Source: Branchiostoma floridae (taxonomy: Eukaryota; Chordata; Leptocardii; Amphioxiformes; Branchiostomatidae). Taken from it: a stretch of 64,000 bases of DNA. This document shows, piece by piece, positions 1,621-50,519 of the stretch. Below the pieces are notes generated by a model that had not been told where the DNA came from, did no database searches, and saw only the letters and a program-made list of their open reading frames with translations. The position numbers were made by a program, and so were the translations under genes. Numbering within the stretch: position 1 is the first letter of the stretch; each line of letters starts with the position of its first letter. The DNA is taken from assembly GCF_000003815.2 (NCBI RefSeq), contig NC_049992.1, positions 18,116,957 through 18,180,956 of the forward strand, written 5' to 3'.

Positions 1621-1992
1621 CACCAGGATGGCTATTCCCTGTGTTTACAGAAGAAACTGAATACTGTACCTTGTACAGAATTTCTTCTTTACTTTGTCAC
1701 AATAACTTGATGATGTCAAATGCATTTTAGACATGTGCAGACACACTAACTATATTTTGTAATTGATGGAGTCTCACAGAGTCTGGAAAAAAACTTTTAA
1801 GGATAAGCAGATGTAATCAAACGTTGACTCTTGCATGGATTCTAAACACATGATGGAGAAAATGGGTGAGGGTAGAGAATGGAGATTTCCTTTGTACAGT
1901 TGTCCCATAATAGTGTAGTGGTAGTATACAGTTTTGGGAAACTGGATTCTATCTGTGGGAAGCCTTTGTCCTGTTTTTATCCACTCCTTTCA

Positions 1993-2285
1993 GCTACGGC
2001 CACGTGGCGCGTTGGTACACCCGATCCCTCGATCTCGGAAGTTAAGCAACGAGCGGTCCGGACAGTACTTGGATGGGAGTCCCCCACCCAAGGACGTCCG
2101 GATTGCTGTAGCCTCACAAAGTTTTCCACGAAATCGTCTTCCGGGAGGGACGTAAAACGGGGGTCCCGTGCTCGAGGAGGTGCCTCGACCACGTTAAACA
2201 GCCTCATTACTCATACTTGGGGTACCTACTGGCTGGCAAAATACACCAGATGATTATCATTATTATTATTATTATTATGATCAGC
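1993..2285 (+). mobile_element. SINE with a 5S rRNA-derived head (SINE3 type)
   Basis: Positions 1993-2113 follow animal 5S rRNA from GCTACGGCCA through GATCTCGGAAGTTAAGCA and GTACTTGGATGGGAG to GCTGTAGCC. The internal pol III control regions (A box, intermediate element, C box) are therefore recognisable. The remaining ~140 bp (CTTCCGGGAGGGACGTAAAA onward) is a non-5S body, and the element ends in an ATT-rich microsatellite tail near 2255-2280. This layout is that of a 5S-derived SINE rather than a functional 5S gene. The 5S part diverges from a working gene in the CCACCC region and the 3' stem. Confidence 0.75.
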
Positions 2286-16217: not shown

Positions 16218-17216
16218 TTAAGAACTGTGCCCTGTGTGAGTTTGCATGTGTTTCTTCAGATGACTCCTCGTGGTGAACTGCTTGCTGCACTCCTCACACC
16301 TGTAGGGTTTCTCCCCTGTGTGAGTCCGCATGTGAGACTTCAGACTATTAAGCAGACTGAACTGCTTGCTGCACTCCTCACACCTGTAGGGTTTCTCCCC
16401 TGTGTGAGTCCTCATGTGTGTCTTCAGACTATTAAGCAGACTGAACTGCTTGCTGCACTCCTCACACCTGTAGGGTTTCTCCCCTGTGTGAGTCCTCATG
16501 TGTGTCTTCAGACTATTAAGCAGACTGAACTGCTTGCTACACTCCTCACATCTGTAGGGTTTCTCACCTGTGTGAGTCCTTGTGTGTTTCTTCAGATCAC
16601 CCAGCTGACTGAACTGCCTGCTGCACTCCTCACATCTGTAGGGTCTCTCACCTGTGTGAGTCCGCATGTGAGTCTTCAAATGACCCAGGTCACTGAAATA
16701 CTTGCTGCACTCCTCACACTTGTAGGGTTTCTCACCTGTGTGAGTCCGCATGTGAGTCTTCAAATGACTCAGCCTACTGAACTGCTTGCTGCACTCCTCA
16801 CACCCGTAGGGTTTTTCACCAGTGTGAGTTTGCATGTGTTTGTTCAGATTACCTAGCTCACTGAACTGCCTGCTGCACTCCTCACACCTGTAGGATTTCT
16901 CACCGGTGTGAGTCCTCATGTGTTTCTTCAGATTACTCAGCTGACTGAACTGCTTGCTGCACTCCTCACACCTGTAGGGTTTCTCCCCTGTGTGAGTCCG
17001 CATGTGTCCCTTAAGATGACTCAGCTGACTGAACTGCTTGCTGCACTCCTCACACCTGTACGGTTTCTCCCCTGTGTGAGTCCTGATGTGTATCTTCAGA
17101 CTATTAAGCAGACTGAACTCCTTGTTGCACTCCTCACATCTGTACCGTTTTGCAACCACAATTCTGCCAACAGACTTCCCTTCCACCACATCAGAGCTGG
17201 TTCCACTTGTTGCCAT
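16218..17216 (-). CDS. C2H2 zinc-finger protein, 11 fingers (copy 1)
   Basis: 332-residue protein from ATG at 17216: a ~27-residue leader (MATSGTSSDVVEGKSVG...) followed by eleven tandem C-x2-C-x12-H-x3-H fingers joined by TGEKP-type linkers (two are TGEKS or TGERP), ending TGHSS. Helix residues (-1,2,3,6) read in order LNSI, QSHG, QSNK, EGNK, RSHT, DGHT, QGDK, LNST, LNST, LNSS, TSHK. No KRAB, SCAN, BTB or ZAD domain is visible. It is probably a nuclear DNA-binding protein; the target is unknown. The start was chosen because MATSGT is shared with the paralog at 21468-22466 and a splice acceptor (tttttacag) lies just upstream, implying a 5'-UTR intron. A frame-open upstream ATG at 17264 falls before that acceptor. 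Confidence 0.9.
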   Translation of the reverse strand: MATSGTSSDVVEGKSVGRIVVAKRYRCEECNKEFSLLNSLKIHIRTHTGEKPYRCEECSKQFSQLSHLKGHMRTHTGEKPYRCEECSKQFSQLSNLKKHMRTHTGEKSYRCEECSRQFSELGNLNKHMQTHTGEKPYGCEECSKQFSRLSHLKTHMRTHTGEKPYKCEECSKYFSDLGHLKTHMRTHTGERPYRCEECSRQFSQLGDLKKHTRTHTGEKPYRCEECSKQFSLLNSLKTHMRTHTGEKPYRCEECSKQFSLLNSLKTHMRTHTGEKPYRCEECSKQFSLLNSLKSHMRTHTGEKPYRCEECSKQFTTRSHLKKHMQTHTGHSS

Positions 17217-17515
17217 GATGGTAGTAACAGCATTAACCAATTCTGTAAAAATCAGATGAAACAATATTTTACAGCTTTCAATCTGTTAGGTCATTAAAAA
17301 AAGGGTAGGCGTCTGCTAAGGTCAAACATTAAATAATAGATAAATCAGACAATTCAGTCTGTAACACCCAATTATCATATAGCCAGGCGCTGCGGACCAA
17401 TCAGGTTCCATGTTGGCCCAAAAGCAGTTATGGCATCGGCTCCTCTCAGTTAGTTAGCAACTCTCCCGTCAAATTGTGAGTTAGCAAGTACTCTTCTCTA
17501 AGTGGGTTTGTGATA

Positions 17516-21467: not shown

Positions 21468-22466
21468 TTAAGAACTGTGCCCAGTGTGAGTTTGCATGTG
21501 TTTCTTCAGATAACTCCCCGTGGTGAACTGCTTGCTGCACTCCTCACACCTGTAGGGTTTCTCCCCTGTGTGAGTCCTCATGTGTGTCTTCAGACTATTA
21601 AGCAGACTGAACTGCTTGCTGCACTCCTCACACCTGTAGGGTTTCTCCCCTGTGTGAGTCCTCATGTGTGTCTTCAGGCTATTAAGCAGACTGAACTGCA
21701 TGCTGCACTCCTCACACCTGTAGGGTTTCTCACCGGTGTGAGTCCTTGTGTGTTTCTTCAGATCACCCAGCTGACTGAACTGTTTGCTACACTCCTCACA
21801 TTTGTAGGGTCTCTCACCTGTGTGAGTCCGCATGTGAGTCTTCAAATGACCCAGCTCACTGAAATACTTGCTGCACTGCTCACACCTGTAGGGTTTCTCA
21901 CCTGTGTGAGTCAGCGTGTGAGTCTTCAAATGACTCAGCCTACTGAACTGCTTGCTGCAGTCCTCACACCTGTAGGGTTTTTCACCAGTGTGAGTCAGCA
22001 TGTGTTTGTTCAGATTACCCAACTCACTGAACTGCTTGCTGCACTCCTCACACCTGTAGGATTTCTCACCAGTGTGAGTCCGCATGTGATTCTTCAGATT
22101 ACTTAGCTGACTGAACTGCTTGCTGCACACCTCACACCTGTAGGGTTTCTCACCTGTGTGAGTCCGCATGTGTCCCTTAAGATGACTCAGCTGACTGAAC
22201 TGCTTGCTGCACTCCTCACACCTGTAGGGTTTCTCCCCTGTGTGAGTCCTCATGTGTGTCTTCAGACTATCAAGCAGCCTGAACTGCTTGCTGCACTCCT
22301 CACACCTGTAGGGTTTCTCACCTGTGTGAGTCCGCATGTGAGTTTTCAGACGACTCGGATGATGGAACTCCTTGCTGCACTCCTCACACCTGTATCGTTT
22401 TGTAGTCACAATGCTGCCAACAGACCCCCCTTCCACCACATCAGATCTAGTTCCACTTGTTGCCAT
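21468..22466 (-). CDS. C2H2 zinc-finger protein, 11 fingers (copy 2)
   Basis: Paralog of the gene at 16218-17216, also 332 residues from the shared MATSGT start, also just after an acceptor (tctttacag). Eleven C2H2 fingers; helix residues in order HSRT, LDST, QSHG, QSNK, EGNK, RSHT, EGHT, QGDK, LNST, LNST, TSYK. Compared with copy 1 it has an extra first finger (FHHPSRLKTH) and one fewer LNSx finger near the C-terminus, so total number is kept while composition shifts. All Cys and His ligands are intact, so both genes look functional. Confidence 0.9.
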   Translation of the reverse strand: MATSGTRSDVVEGGSVGSIVTTKRYRCEECSKEFHHPSRLKTHMRTHTGEKPYRCEECSKQFRLLDSLKTHMRTHTGEKPYRCEECSKQFSQLSHLKGHMRTHTGEKPYRCEVCSKQFSQLSNLKNHMRTHTGEKSYRCEECSKQFSELGNLNKHMLTHTGEKPYRCEDCSKQFSRLSHLKTHTLTHTGEKPYRCEQCSKYFSELGHLKTHMRTHTGERPYKCEECSKQFSQLGDLKKHTRTHTGEKPYRCEECSMQFSLLNSLKTHMRTHTGEKPYRCEECSKQFSLLNSLKTHMRTHTGEKPYRCEECSKQFTTGSYLKKHMQTHTGHSS

Positions 22467-22877
22467 GATGCTCACACTTCTGTAAAGATCAGATGAAACA
22501 ATTTGTTATAGATCAAATAAAATATGAAAGCAGTCATTGTCTTGACCATTGTTTCGATTTGCATGAAAACATCCAGACTGGTTTTGTTTACATTTTGTGG
22601 GCCTTACCCTTCAATGCCCTTTGACATATTACCTAGAATTCATGTCACCGCATATGCTTTCAGATCTCTATGAAATGGCTTATACACAGCCTCCTACTCC
22701 CAGATCAATAAAGGGAGCGATCTTAGGTGATCTGTCAGAGGGCCTGGGTAGCTGGCTTCACCTGACTAACAATCATTGGCTGCGATGTGAATAATTTCTC
22801 AGTGTCTTCTTTTGGGCGATGGAATCCCATCCATTTCTTCCAACTACAACAAGTTCGAAACCATCAACAAATTGGAT

Positions 22878-44656: not shown

Positions 44657-47600
44657 TCAGAAATATATCTTCTTTGTGACATTGATCATCTGCCTACACA
44701 TGGGACAGATTTTGTAGGCGTTCTTGACACATTTTGAGCACACAACCAAGTGACCACATGGTAAGAATGCGTATGCAATCTCTGCGTCCATGCAGATTTT
44801 GCATGATATCTTTTCTTTCACCCTTTCATGCTCCAGCCGCATTTCATTAAGTTGCTCTAGTGCTTTTGACGCATCTGGCCCAGTTTGCACAGACAATGAA
44901 CCAAACATCCCAATCTCATGCTTACTCATTGCCAGTGCGTTGCTATCATCCTTCAGGGGTATATTCCCCACATCATATCCAAGCACAAACTGACACCACT
45001 CATTCATATCTTCATGACATTGCAGTGGGTGATCCCCACACTTCCAATCACCTTTCACTCCACCGCACACAAAACACTCGACACACAGCTCCTTTCCGAT
45101 ATAAAAGAAGCCACCCTGTACAAGGCCTTTTGGAGCTATAGGTGAAGAAGGTGGCCAGGTCTCAAAGGTGCGCATCCTCACAGCCTCCCTGTGCAGTCCT
45201 CGTTTCCTCATGGTGTTGTGGAACGCTGTAGGACTTACAAATGGGATGTACCGTGGGCCATCTTGGTAAGGCAGAAGGGCTGCACCTGTTCAGGTATGAA
45301 TAAAAAGTTTATTTGTTTGATTGTTTGAACCTTTATTTACACATGAGAAGCTCAAATCGACCTGCTTTTCATTGAGGTCATGAAGGAGGTAAGGGTCAGA
45401 TAAAATATAACAGAGATACATTGAGTCCTAATAAATCTATCAACATACTAGTATATAACTACATATACATGGTACAAAACATTAGTAGAGCGAAAGCTCA
45501 GCAATCATAGTCCGTGTCCGGTTGTTTTTGTTCTTTCTTTTTCTTCAAGAGTAGGTACTTCACTTAAATAGAGATCTTTCAGCTACAGCTTGGGGGCATG
45601 TTAGGGACGAGAAGACTAGCCCATTCCAGTTGAATGTTCTAGCTAGAGAATTTGTTACATTTCCGAATAAATAAATAAATAACATTCACCATCATTGGTA
45701 ACACTTGGATTTGCATTTAACTGTTAGCACACTTACGTCGAACGATGCCGGTGGCTCCGGTGTACCGAAAGTGCGAAAAGGAACGAAAAGGAGCGAAAAG
45801 GAACGAAAAGGAACGAAAAGGAACGAAAAGGAGCGAAAAGGAACGAAAAGGAGCGAAAAGGAACGAAAAGGAACGAAAAGGAGCGAAAAGGAACGAAAAG
45901 GAACGAAAAGGAACGAAAAGGAAAGTACCGAAAGTGCGAAAAGGAACGAAAAGGAAAGTACCGAAAGTGCGAAAAGGAACGAAAAGGAACGAAAGGATTG
46001 GATAGGAACGAAAAGGAACGAAAAGGAAAGTACCGAAAGTGCGAAAAGGAACGAAAAGGAACGAAGTATGAAGCAAAGTGAAATAAAATCGATGGGAATA
46101 TAAGGTAACGGTACTGTGATCGGCAAATGCATTCGAAACGGACTTTATTTTTGTATTTTGTGGCTTGTTCCACGAAATTCCTAGAGCTCCAATGGTTCAA
46201 CGGCGAACCGGCGGGAAAGTGCACGCGTGGAAATAGCTAAATACAAATCAAAGGCGATGGGCGGAGTCACGAATCAGTGCGTCCCGGGTTCCCACGCGGG
46301 CTGTCACAGATCAAATTGGGAGGAGGGGGGGGGGCTTGAAAGCCGCTGAGTAGCGCGCTAGAAAAACGTTTGACGGGTTGACATTCTCGTGTAGGTTATT
46401 TTTCTACGGTCCCAAAAATGTCACAAAGTCGTTTTCTAGTGGTCCCGGCCTAAATTATAAGTGGCCCCGGGCAATCGGGACACCGCGTTGATTTCTATTC
46501 GAGGCCTGGTTCCAAAGAATTTTTCTGCCGAACCCGCACGGGAGACGTGAGTCGCCCGCCAGATCTCTCCGTAGTTTCCCAATATCCTTTGCACAAATTC
46601 CTCACGTTGGCCATTTCTTACCGCAAAATGATTAATATTCATGGTACAACGCGAAGAAAACTCCTTGGTACAATGTATACATGTCTATCCTTTCACAGCT
46701 TTTCTTTTGTCGTGAACGAGCAAGAAGATATGTCTCCAGTCTCCAGAAAACCATGTTGTGGGCCCTGTTGAAGGGAGCTGTCATGCTCGTGGGGCAGCAG
46801 TTTATTAGCATATCCTTCCTGACCGGACTTCTATTAGACATAAACAATCGCAGGTCATTTGCATGCGGCGCTCCCATCTTTGATCTTGGGAGAACAGAAG
46901 CCACCCAAATACAACAACAACGCTACAATCTTGCCTCATTCTGAAAATGTATATTAATCGATATTTATCCATCACCCACCAGTAACTGAATTTTAGTCCT
47001 TACTTTCTTATCTCAGTTCTGTTTCCTTGTATTTCGCTGATCTTCAGAGAATAATTTAGCCACACAAAGACAACAGCCTAAAACAGCCCCGTAAAAATTT
47101 GATATTGCCAAATTCTGAGTAAAATAAAACACGTTTCATAGGCTTCTAACGCCCGCAGTACCGGTTCCTTATATTCTCATTGATTTTATTTTAGTTTGCT
47201 TCATACTTCGTTCCTTTTCGTTCCTTTTCGCACTTTCGGTAGACCCGGTGGCTCGGGGGGCTTGAGTCGCCACTGTGGCAGCATATCCTCCCAGAGCTTC
47301 CATGATCTTGCAATGTAGATTGATATCAGTGATTACAAATACATGGTTACTATGAACTGTCTTTTTATTTGAGATGTGTGTATGGTTGACAGCAGAGTGT
47401 AGGTTCGCAGCTATTTCAGTATGTAACGCGCATTGAAATAAAAGATTGCAACAGCAATGTTCCTTTACATCTTGTCTACACCAAGGTACAATTGTGTCTT
47501 GGAAAACAGTGATTTTCTGTGTTCAAGAATGAAGCAAAAAGTCAAAATACTTCTGATGTCACCTACCTCTTGTGGACTTGTGGCAAAGCTGGGGAAGTAG

Positions 47601-50519
47601 ACCCTCCTGATGTCAGCCAGAAGTTTGTCCACGTTACAATACCTATGGCTCCCAGTCATTCTGCTGAGGTGTTCCTGTACAAAATACATGCAGTAACGCT
47701 CAGTAATCAATTTTCAAGTATCTGGAGCTGATACACAGAATAATATTAGTAGATCCACCTGTCATGAACAAATCAAAATGCATGTTGCCCAGTCAAAATA
47801 ATTGTTTGAAAAATCATGGTGTTAAAACTAATTTGTAATACCTTTTTTGCCTTTCTGATGTTGTCAATGTTAGCAGCTCTATCCCCGGTAACTCCTGCTA
47901 CCAGGACATGCTTCATTTTCTTCAAGTTGGAGTGTTCTGAAGAACCTACGATTGCTACTTGTTGCATGGTAGTGATATCCTTGCTACAATTTGGGGAGAT
48001 AAATGTCATCTGTGTAAACACATCTATGTAAATGTTCCTGACATCGAAATGTCAAAATATAGAAATAAAATAAACTGTGCTGGCATCTACTGTAGCAGAT
48101 GCTGTGGTTTGATAACAGTCTACCGAACAAGAAAGTACATTTTGTACATTATCTGTACATTACGTTATGGCCAAAGGGTTTGCAGTTTTACTCACTAGAT
48201 TGTGGCCGGTTTGAATTGCTGCGGCAGTGAAGGGTCAGGTGGACTGTTTCCTGCCAGTACCTGCCTCAACTTCTCTCCAATCGCAGCCTCCAACTCAGCA
48301 TTGTCCAAGCTGGTACAATGTAGTCGAAACAACATGTTTGAAATATTATTGATTTCAGTTTTGCTCACGTTCCTATCATTGTTAAAAATATGCTCCATAC
48401 AGTGCAATATCATTACAACTGCAAATTACTGATAATATGGGGGTTGACATCATTTTTATTGACATGTAAACTCAACACATTTAAAATCAACATACAAGAT
48501 GAGTTTTAAAAAAAGAGGAAACCTAGGCCGATCCCTTAATCAGAATAGTAAAAAATCTGGAGGGCGCAAATGCAAGGTAAAACTTTATGTGTGCATCCGA
48601 CTTTTTGATACATGTAGTATTGCACACATCTCAGCAGTTTATCAGTGTAAAAATCTCCAACACTGTACTCGCTTACATACCTGTCCTTACAAGTGATTGT
48701 GGTGGGATCGACACAGAAGTCGACGTTGTCGATGTCAACAAACATCGGCTCGTCCTCTGCGGTCCAGGGTAGACCGAACTTCCCCATGTCTTCACCAGTG
48801 ACCAGTGACACTGCCGTGCGTGTTTCCGGATGGTACAAGCAACGACACTGGTCACTTTTCCAGTTTCCAATGTGCCAGCCAGTCTGTAGGTTAACCTGTC
48901 AATCAACAGGCAGAGGGCAAATATATTTACAGATCGGAATCTAAACAGCATTTGCCTCTTGTAGAGTGTTACAGTTGGAGTCACGAAAATATTAACTTCT
49001 GGGCAAGTTCCTAACTAGTTCTGCGTGCTTACAACTCGTACAGCATGCGATATGGATATGACAGTCAATGTAACTTTAAGTCTTAAAACTCAGATTGATC
49101 ATCTGCCAAAACATGGGACAGATTTTGAAGGTGCCTTTGACACATTTTGAGCACACAACCAAGTGACCGCACGGTAAGAATGCATATACAATCTCGGCAT
49201 CCATGCAAATTTTGCAACATATTTTTTCTTTGGCCCTTTCATACACCTGTCGTATTTCATTCAGTAGCTCGAGTACTTTTAATGCATCTAGCCCAGTTTG
49301 CACTGCCAGTGTGAAAAACATACCAATCTCATCCATGAATAGTTTCATCAGTTTGGTACTAAGATAAATTGAACAACACAGCCTTCCTTTGATTCTTCAG
49401 TAATCACCTGTCGTCTCCATCTTCTTTTGTACTGATGAAGACGACAGGTGGTCGTCGAAACGTTTACTGAAGAATTAAAGGAAGGTTGTGTAACGAAGAA
49501 GACTTTGTGCAATCATGTCAATCTCATTGCATGTAGGCATCCTTCAAGTTCTAAGCTAACCTTGCGGTGTGGAGGCCAGTTCTTCACTGGGCCTGCCCCT
49601 GGTCCTCGATCTGGACGTCTGGCCACCTGCAGTTTCCGGTTAACTCCTGCTGCAGGTTTCTCCATGTCGTCCCATGTCTCCAACTCACCACGGAGTGGCA
49701 CATGGTCCCTCGGGCCTCCTACGCCTTTTTAACATGAACAAGAGGTATTTACCACTCAAAATTACCACACCATACCACTTTCAGAACGCTAAATGTCAAG
49801 CCCGAAAGTCTTGCTGCAGTACCGTAGCAAGCCGCTGAACTTGACCTTTGTCTCCCCCGATACCTACCTACCAAGTATTGTGAAGATACATCCACCGCTT
49901 CCCGAGATATGTGTTGCTTAACATACATTCGCATAATTCCACCAGGTGTCATTATACCGCCACCTCAAAAACGTTGTTATAGAGGCCTTCTCAAGATTGT
50001 CTTCAACACCTAAATATCTGAATTGTATTACATTTAGGATAATTAACATTCGGTGTTCAAGACAATCTTGGGAAGACCTCTATACTAACGTTTTTTTAGG
50101 TGGCGGTATTATGCCACCTGGTGGAATTATGATAGTCGATGTTATGAATAAACACACAAACATACAAGTCCGCTGCAGTGAACCATCAACAGCTTCTCGA
50201 GTTATGCATACACACACAGCTACTCTTCCATAGCACAACGGAAACCATAACCTTCTTGGCGTTGTTGACAAGTGCTGAGAAGCTCACAAAGACACGTGCA
50301 GCATTTTTGTATATACCGTTCTCAAGTTGGGAAAATTGAAATTTTGAATTTTATAATTTTGTGCCTAAGTGATTAAAGAATATTTTAGATTACCATTTTC
50401 ATCGTAACGAAATGAATTGAAATGTAATGAATAAAAGTCAGGATCAGAAACAAACCTGGACTTTTCATTCTCAGAACGCTCTGAGCGACGGCTGAGTTGG
50501 TGCTCGCTGCGTCTGCCAT
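44657..50519 (-). CDS. BIR-RING (IAP-type) protein with a long novel N-terminus; exon 7 split by a transposon
   Basis: Eight-exon model: 50519-50456, 49724-49561, 48883-48681, 48372-48196, 47983-47842, 47674-47567, exon 7 in two pieces (47306-47247 and 45749-45737) and 45285-44657. All borders are GT-AG and phases join. Without the inserted element the CDS is 1560 nt, 519 codons plus stop. The last exon encodes a BIR domain (C381, C384, H401, C408, in ECFVCGG and CHEDMNEWC) and a C3HC4 RING (~472-507, CKICMD...PCGH...CPMCRQM), the plan of inhibitor-of-apoptosis E3 ubiquitin ligases. The first ~310 residues match no domain I recognise. The start is MADAASTNSAV at 50519. Exon 4's acceptor (caatgatag) is weak. 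As the sequence stands, reading into the element stops within its terminal repeat, so the BIR and RING would be lost unless the insertion is spliced out or absent from other alleles. A separate shorter transcript from exon 8 is also possible. Confidence 0.65.
45300..45440 (-). mobile_element. 3' end of a retroelement, minus orientation
   Basis: On the minus strand: TGACCTCAATGAAAAGCAGG, TTTGAGCTTCTCATGTGT, AATAAAGGTTCAAACAATCA and CAAACAAATAAAC tail. This resembles a SINE or LINE 3' end with an oligomeric tail. It lies in intron 7 of the BIR-RING gene. Confidence 0.45.
45758..47246. mobile_element. hAT-like DNA element with long TIRs, inserted in exon 7 of the BIR-RING gene
   Basis: Flanked by GGTGGCTC at 45750-45757 and 47247-47254 (8 bp, typical of hAT). 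Left end CGGTGTACCGAAAGTGCG; right end inverted GGGTCTACCGAAAGTGCG. Homology of the arms continues through GAACGAAGTATGAAGCAAA and AATATAAGGTAACGGTACTG (right arm ~47165-47246). The left arm (45758-46110) is longer because of an internal decamer expansion. The inside is partly GC-rich (46200-46560). It contains an open frame on the minus strand (46904-46632) with no transposase motif, so the element is probably non-autonomous. Confidence 0.8.
45768..46072. repeat. Decamer tandem repeat (AACGAAAAGG)n inside a transposon arm
   Basis: Units alternate AACGAAAAGG and AGCGAAAAGG. The terminal motif TACCGAAAGTGCGAAAAGG recurs at about 45928, 45959 and 46030 inside the array. The open frames on both strands are repeat artefacts. 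Confidence 0.95.
49076..49348 (-). pseudogene. Decayed copy of the RING segment in intron 2 of the BIR-RING gene
   Basis: Encodes a stretch matching exon 8 from DEIGMF through CKICMDAEIVYAFLPCGHLV and CPMF. The last RING cysteine is Phe (CPMF instead of CPMC) and the following Arg is Trp. It lies between exons 2 and 3 and in the same orientation. Its candidate acceptor (tatcttag) does not fit the phase of exon 2, so it is probably not a used alternative exon. Confidence 0.75.
49378..49495. repeat. Inverted repeat with a CTGATGA-hairpin-GAAAC motif
   Basis: CACAGCCTTCCTTTGATTC and TTCAGTAATCACCTGTCGTC at the left pair with GACGACAGGTG, TTTACTGAAGAATTAAAGG and AAGGTTGTG at the right. Between them CTGATGA (49432-49438), a 6-bp stem with 5-nt loop, then GAAAC. 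Confidence 0.65.
49932..50131. mobile_element. Foldback MITE, ends CATAATTCCACCAGGTG
   Basis: Left CATAATTCCACCAGGTG and right CACCTGGTGGAATTATG are exact inverses. Arms continue (ATACCGCCACCT; ATAGAGG; CAAGATTGTCTT) with imperfect pairing. It lies in intron 1 of the BIR-RING gene. Confidence 0.75.

Follow-up and report, generated by a model that had tools for sequence, protein, structure and literature searches.

A young transposon insertion in coding exon 7 of an IAP-like gene of Branchiostoma floridae, probably a loss-of-function allele

The insertion of a transposable element into an exon, with truncation of the gene, is a well-documented and ordinary kind of event. An Alu insertion in ATM with exon skipping, described in the accessible part of PMC11919196, resembles the locus reported here in that the element is exonic and truncation or skipping is predicted; it differs in that the element here is an inverted-repeat DNA transposon, in an IAP-like gene of a lancelet, and that skipping is a prediction alone. 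A second related system is that of introners derived from DNA transposons, in which, according to the accessible part of PMC9860276, non-autonomous inverted-repeat elements with a duplication likewise lie inside exons, with an internal donor and an acceptor AG in the duplication, both of which have possible counterparts at our locus. Nevertheless, our element is 1.5 kb long, whereas the introner families have median lengths of 30-654 nt, and, unlike introners, it has weak candidate splice sites and no exon bias shown among its copies; the words Branchiostoma and amphioxus are absent from the main text of that paper. As for the interrupted gene, a BIR together with a C-terminal RING is common to it and to IAP proteins (BIRC2/3, XIAP, NAIP), from which our model differs in having one BIR, preceded by ~290 residues without a Pfam match. 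A literature search on amphioxus transposon insertions, IAP expansion, introners and MITEs, with Repbase and subscription journals outside its reach, turned up nothing on either the locus or the element.

The gene lies on the minus strand of a 64,000-nucleotide stretch of the B. floridae genome (hereafter the window), from ~50519 to 44657, and the 5' end of our model is uncertain. Exon 1 (50456..50519), which bears the start ATG, and exon 2 (49561..49718), whose acceptor is uncertain, are both probable exons. These are followed by exon 3 (48681..48895, 215 nt), exon 4 (48196..48309, 114 nt), exon 5 (47842..47983, 142 nt), exon 6 (47567..47674, 108 nt), the interrupted exon 7 and exon 8 (44657..45285, 629 nt), which carries the BIR, the RING and the stop codon. 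In the model all six exons upstream of exons 7 and 8 are open and separated by GT-AG introns, exons 1 and 2 with the uncertainty already given. The BIR of exon 8 matched PF00653 (E 1.1e-14, 55.2 bits against a Pfam cut-off of 22.9) and its C-terminal RING matched PF13920 (E 8.5e-13, 48.3 bits against a cut-off of 27), and the top PDB sequence matches of the exon 8 protein were chains of NAIP, BIRC2/3 and XIAP. Judged by its predicted BIR and C-terminal RING, the gene thus resembles the IAP genes. The region encoded by exons 3-6 (48895-47567, minus strand) is common to the paralogue described below; the piece of it that was tested matched no Pfam family at E <=1, and it is possibly an undescribed domain. 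The RING end of exon 8 also has a degraded copy in intron 2 (49082-49360, minus strand), with 65.6% protein identity and 83.7% DNA identity over 49094-49332, which was the only sign of tandem paralogues in the window and three adjoining 10-kb stretches. Elsewhere in the window we observed two C2H2 zinc-finger open reading frames of 348 and 335 codons (16218-17264 and 21468-22475, minus strand) that lie in a duplicated block, and a 5S rRNA-like sequence (1992-2114, plus strand, 52.9 bits), the only Rfam match in the window at gathering thresholds.

Exon 7 is split by a transposon copy of 1,489 bp (45758..47246, minus strand), which in the direction of the gene starts with GGGTCTACCG and ends with CGGTACACCG, termini as in other copies of its family. 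An earlier note on this DNA had placed the element between identical flanks, and this was confirmed: the 8-bp target-site duplication GGTGGCTC (plus strand) is found exactly on both sides, at 45750..45757 and 47247..47254. With equal base use, the probability that two given ends are flanked by identical 8-bp sequences by chance is ~4^-8. The 5' part of the exon (47247..47306, 60 nt) is entered in phase 0 and has a homologous exon in the paralogue, and the 3' part (45737..45749, 13 nt) is left in phase 1 at the donor gtaagt. Removal of the element and one copy of the duplication restores an exon of 73 nt (47306..47247 joined to 45749..45737) with acceptor cattgcaag, which reads IMEALGGYAATVATQAPRATGIVR; length, splice sites and phases are those that the note had proposed. 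With this exon the joined coding sequence is continuous and 1,503 nt long, a multiple of three, as is the 1,560 nt that the note had given; the discrepancy between the two totals presumably sits in the uncertain 5' exons. As assembled, exon 7 is 1,570 nt long and, also as claimed before, has a stop ahead of the BIR and RING: codon 313, at 47171-47169, inside a 121-bp inverted-repeat arm of the element (47121..47241).

The splice sites by themselves are not enough to pick out the 73-nt exon. Scored with rough matrices among phase-compatible open candidates, it ranked 4 of 32, and its score was reached by 122 of 300 shuffles; its acceptor scores poorly, and the exon is outscored by a 283-nt candidate with an identical 3' end. 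We therefore did not accept this ranking by itself as proof of exon 7, and take the exon to be real because a paralogue has a homologous, uninterrupted one. This paralogue (L073, C14:18418600-18427600), found by a protein search of the genome, lies on the same contig ~250 kb away. Its exons 3-8 are of 209, 120, 139, 105, 70 and 599 nt, compared with 215, 114, 142, 108, 73 and 629 nt in the window gene, the cumulative intron phases of these exons are identical in the two genes, and all six are open to one terminal stop. Exon 7 of the paralogue is 70 nt long and uninterrupted, has Ile as its first residue, runs from phase 0 to phase 1 and ends at the same donor, gtaagt; it was by far the best of eight candidates in its intron, with a score reached by none of 300 shuffles. 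The 13-nt end motif of the element is absent throughout the 9-kb paralogue locus. Over the full extent of the comparison, protein identity is 37%, and both proteins have the conserved Cys and His residues of the BIR and RING. Since the exon 7 peptides have only weak similarity, the argument for homology of this exon rests on its position, size and phase. The paralogue also has an extra upstream BIR (PF00653, E 2.1e-25, in two exon pieces joined by hand); a tblastn search of the window with this BIR (E <0.1) matched only the BIR already known there.

The structure of the element points to a non-autonomous DNA transposon copy that moved by a cut-and-paste mode, as inferred from its repeats and duplication. 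It has the inverted repeats of a class II DNA transposon: its termini (45759-45797 and 47207-47245) are complementary at 95%, and the 121-bp arm is 84% complementary to 46031-46151. Near one end it carries a tandem array of 28.4 copies of a 10-bp unit (45774..46065), which on the gene strand is pyrimidine-rich and belongs to a 359-nt stretch free of AG. A Pfam search of five open reading frames in the window copy gave no transposase match above the cut-off, which the best hit (E 0.013) failed.

We then examined the family in the whole assembly (513 Mb, 431 contigs), where a search with the element gave 411 candidates, 40 of them scored, with 275 matching pieces. Exact matches to the 24-nt ends of the element number 140 and 129 genome-wide, the window's own included, and a reversed control gave 0. 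The 40 copies (again including that of the window) were fetched with their flanks, allowing one mismatch in the outer 5 nt of the ends, and the best-matching duplication was chosen for each. Both ends were found in 26 of the 40, the other 14 being without a clean pair. Among the two-ended copies the 8-bp duplication was exact in 19 of 26 and had at most one mismatch in 22, whereas four had 2 to 7 mismatches; dispersed copies thus have a duplication of fixed length, 8 bp, as class II transposons do. This length is shared with hAT-type transposons. hAT elements have CA-type terminal nucleotides and the duplication motif nTnnnnAn. The motif is weak in the family duplications (13 of 22 have T at position 2, and 11 of 22 have A at position 7), and the termini of our element, GGGTC and CGGTG, differ from the CA type.

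Among the places listed on contigs C1-C14 there are 64 facing end-pairs, some with a common end, and 48 of these span 1,393 to 1,838 bp. Open reading frames of 90 aa or more are present in all four of the longest pairs; in a search for a transposase, none of five frames taken from three of these pairs exceeded the Pfam cut-off. In two of the end-pairs, L075 and L076, N makes up about half of the sequence. One copy, L009 (C1:16743512-16745219), has two A-ends 207 bp apart, each followed by the same 25 bases, as if one end had been duplicated in tandem together with its flank. When flanks were joined for 22 copies, the open frames of six were above the 95% shuffle level, but only that of L027 was clearly protein-like by eye; the window locus was below this level (7 of 100 shuffles reach its open-frame length). 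L027 (C8:2119116-2120568) has an exact 8-bp duplication, its joined flanks are open for 266 codons, and the frame that it interrupts reads by eye as C2H2 zinc fingers.

The insertion in exon 7 appears to be young. Of the 40 copies, 33 aligned along more than 900 bp. In this alignment, which left out the array and indels, the window copy differed at 3 of 1,113 sites (0.27%) from the closest sister copy in the sample (L044, on C3); the mean pairwise difference among the 33 copies was 5.7%. One base of the window copy, among 1,154, is private among the sampled copies. For B. floridae, the accessible part of PMC12862219 gives a mutation rate of 5.89e-9, a pi of 0.0397 and an Ne of ~1.7 million; with these parameters the insertion is ~147,000 generations old (95% Poisson interval 3,700 to 820,000), a rough figure because an unsampled copy may share the private base and because neither indels nor the array entered the comparison. 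This estimate is below 4Ne, or 6.8 million generations, so the insertion is probably still polymorphic in the population, as expected of a young neutral insertion. A search of the whole assembly for an empty allele, using the joined flanks, matched only the window locus itself, in two pieces.

Our combined findings suggest the following course. A young non-autonomous transposon entered coding exon 7 and duplicated 8 bp of its target. Were exon 7 retained, the message, with its stop far ahead of the last junction, would be degraded or would yield a product of 312 residues without the BIR and RING; were exon 7 skipped, the resulting frameshift would stop exon 8 after 283 residues, again without the BIR and RING. 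The AATAAA motifs on the gene strand within the element (at 47190, 46806 and 46149) could shorten the message further. With a stop before the BIR and RING in the one case and a frameshift in the other, we consider it likely, from the predicted gene structure, that the recent insertion is a loss-of-function allele for the BIR-RING part of the gene, probably segregating. The view of the earlier note that a genuine coding exon was hit is supported by the duplication, the other family copies and the uninterrupted exon of the paralogue; that the insertion is recent accords with its closeness to the nearest sampled copy, and loss of function with both predicted outcomes for the message.

The gene may already have been dispensable or decaying, the insertion then being neutral, a reading that we regard as unlikely but the best placed of those that compete with our own. 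Such decay could be seen in the degraded copy of the last exon in intron 2, and presence-absence variation in lancelets is enriched in immune-type genes according to the accessible part of PMC12373286, in the main text of which a word search for BIR returned an author name only. However, apart from exon 7, every exon of our model is open and its introns are GT-AG (exons 1 and 2 with their uncertainty), and the BIR and RING both score above their Pfam cut-offs (55.2 against 22.9 and 48.3 against 27 bits).

Alternatively, the element may be spliced out, an option that the earlier note had also named; as an in-frame intron it would leave the gene saved with 15 extra residues, which seems to us improbable. 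The hypothetical intron would run from a donor, GAA|GTATGA, at 47206 to an AG within the duplication, at 45756-45755, as acceptor (45755..47206, minus strand), both weak sites, and its removal would leave a 118-nt exon with the frame open through the BIR and RING and a protein of 515 residues. On the gene strand, the 359 nt ahead of the downstream end of the element lack AG, with 83% pyrimidine over 355 nt, and the next AG to follow is the one in the duplication; in a protist, the introners of Aureococcus add 12 bp in a comparable manner (PMC9860276, accessible part). Yet the candidate donor scored 0.31, where the genuine donor of exon 7 scores 3.14, and the acceptor -5.27 (with the same rough matrices), and an in-frame result is expected by chance about one time in three. 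Nor is there a family-wide rule: only 5 of 22 copies have GTATGA in their first 60 nt, and the distance from the end of the element to the first AG beyond it varies from 3 to 52 nt across family copies. That a very young chordate transposon was here born as an intron, its pyrimidine array, a GT near one end and the AG of the duplication allowing its removal as a polymorphic in-frame gain adding 15 residues, is slightly more doubtful still; if true, an intron gain would have been caught while still polymorphic in a deuterostome. Finally, it is very improbable that the 73-nt exon is unused, with the element harmless in an intron or pseudo-exon and exon 6 joined to another exon, since, although splice scores fail to single the exon out, the paralogue carries an exon at the corresponding position whose phases and donor agree, and joining exon 6 straight to exon 8 breaks the frame.

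Returning to the reading that we prefer, a probable loss-of-function insertion, its kind is familiar, and what is particular here is the youth of the insertion together with an uninterrupted paralogous exon as a control. The locus also draws attention to a transposon family that was active recently and has 8-bp duplications, and it provides a young, cleanly bounded insertion allele in a species with ~4% synonymous diversity (pi 0.0397; PMC12862219, accessible part). From it one could learn whether a 1.5-kb transposon in an exon is retained, skipped or spliced out, and whether the loss of an IAP-like gene is tolerated.
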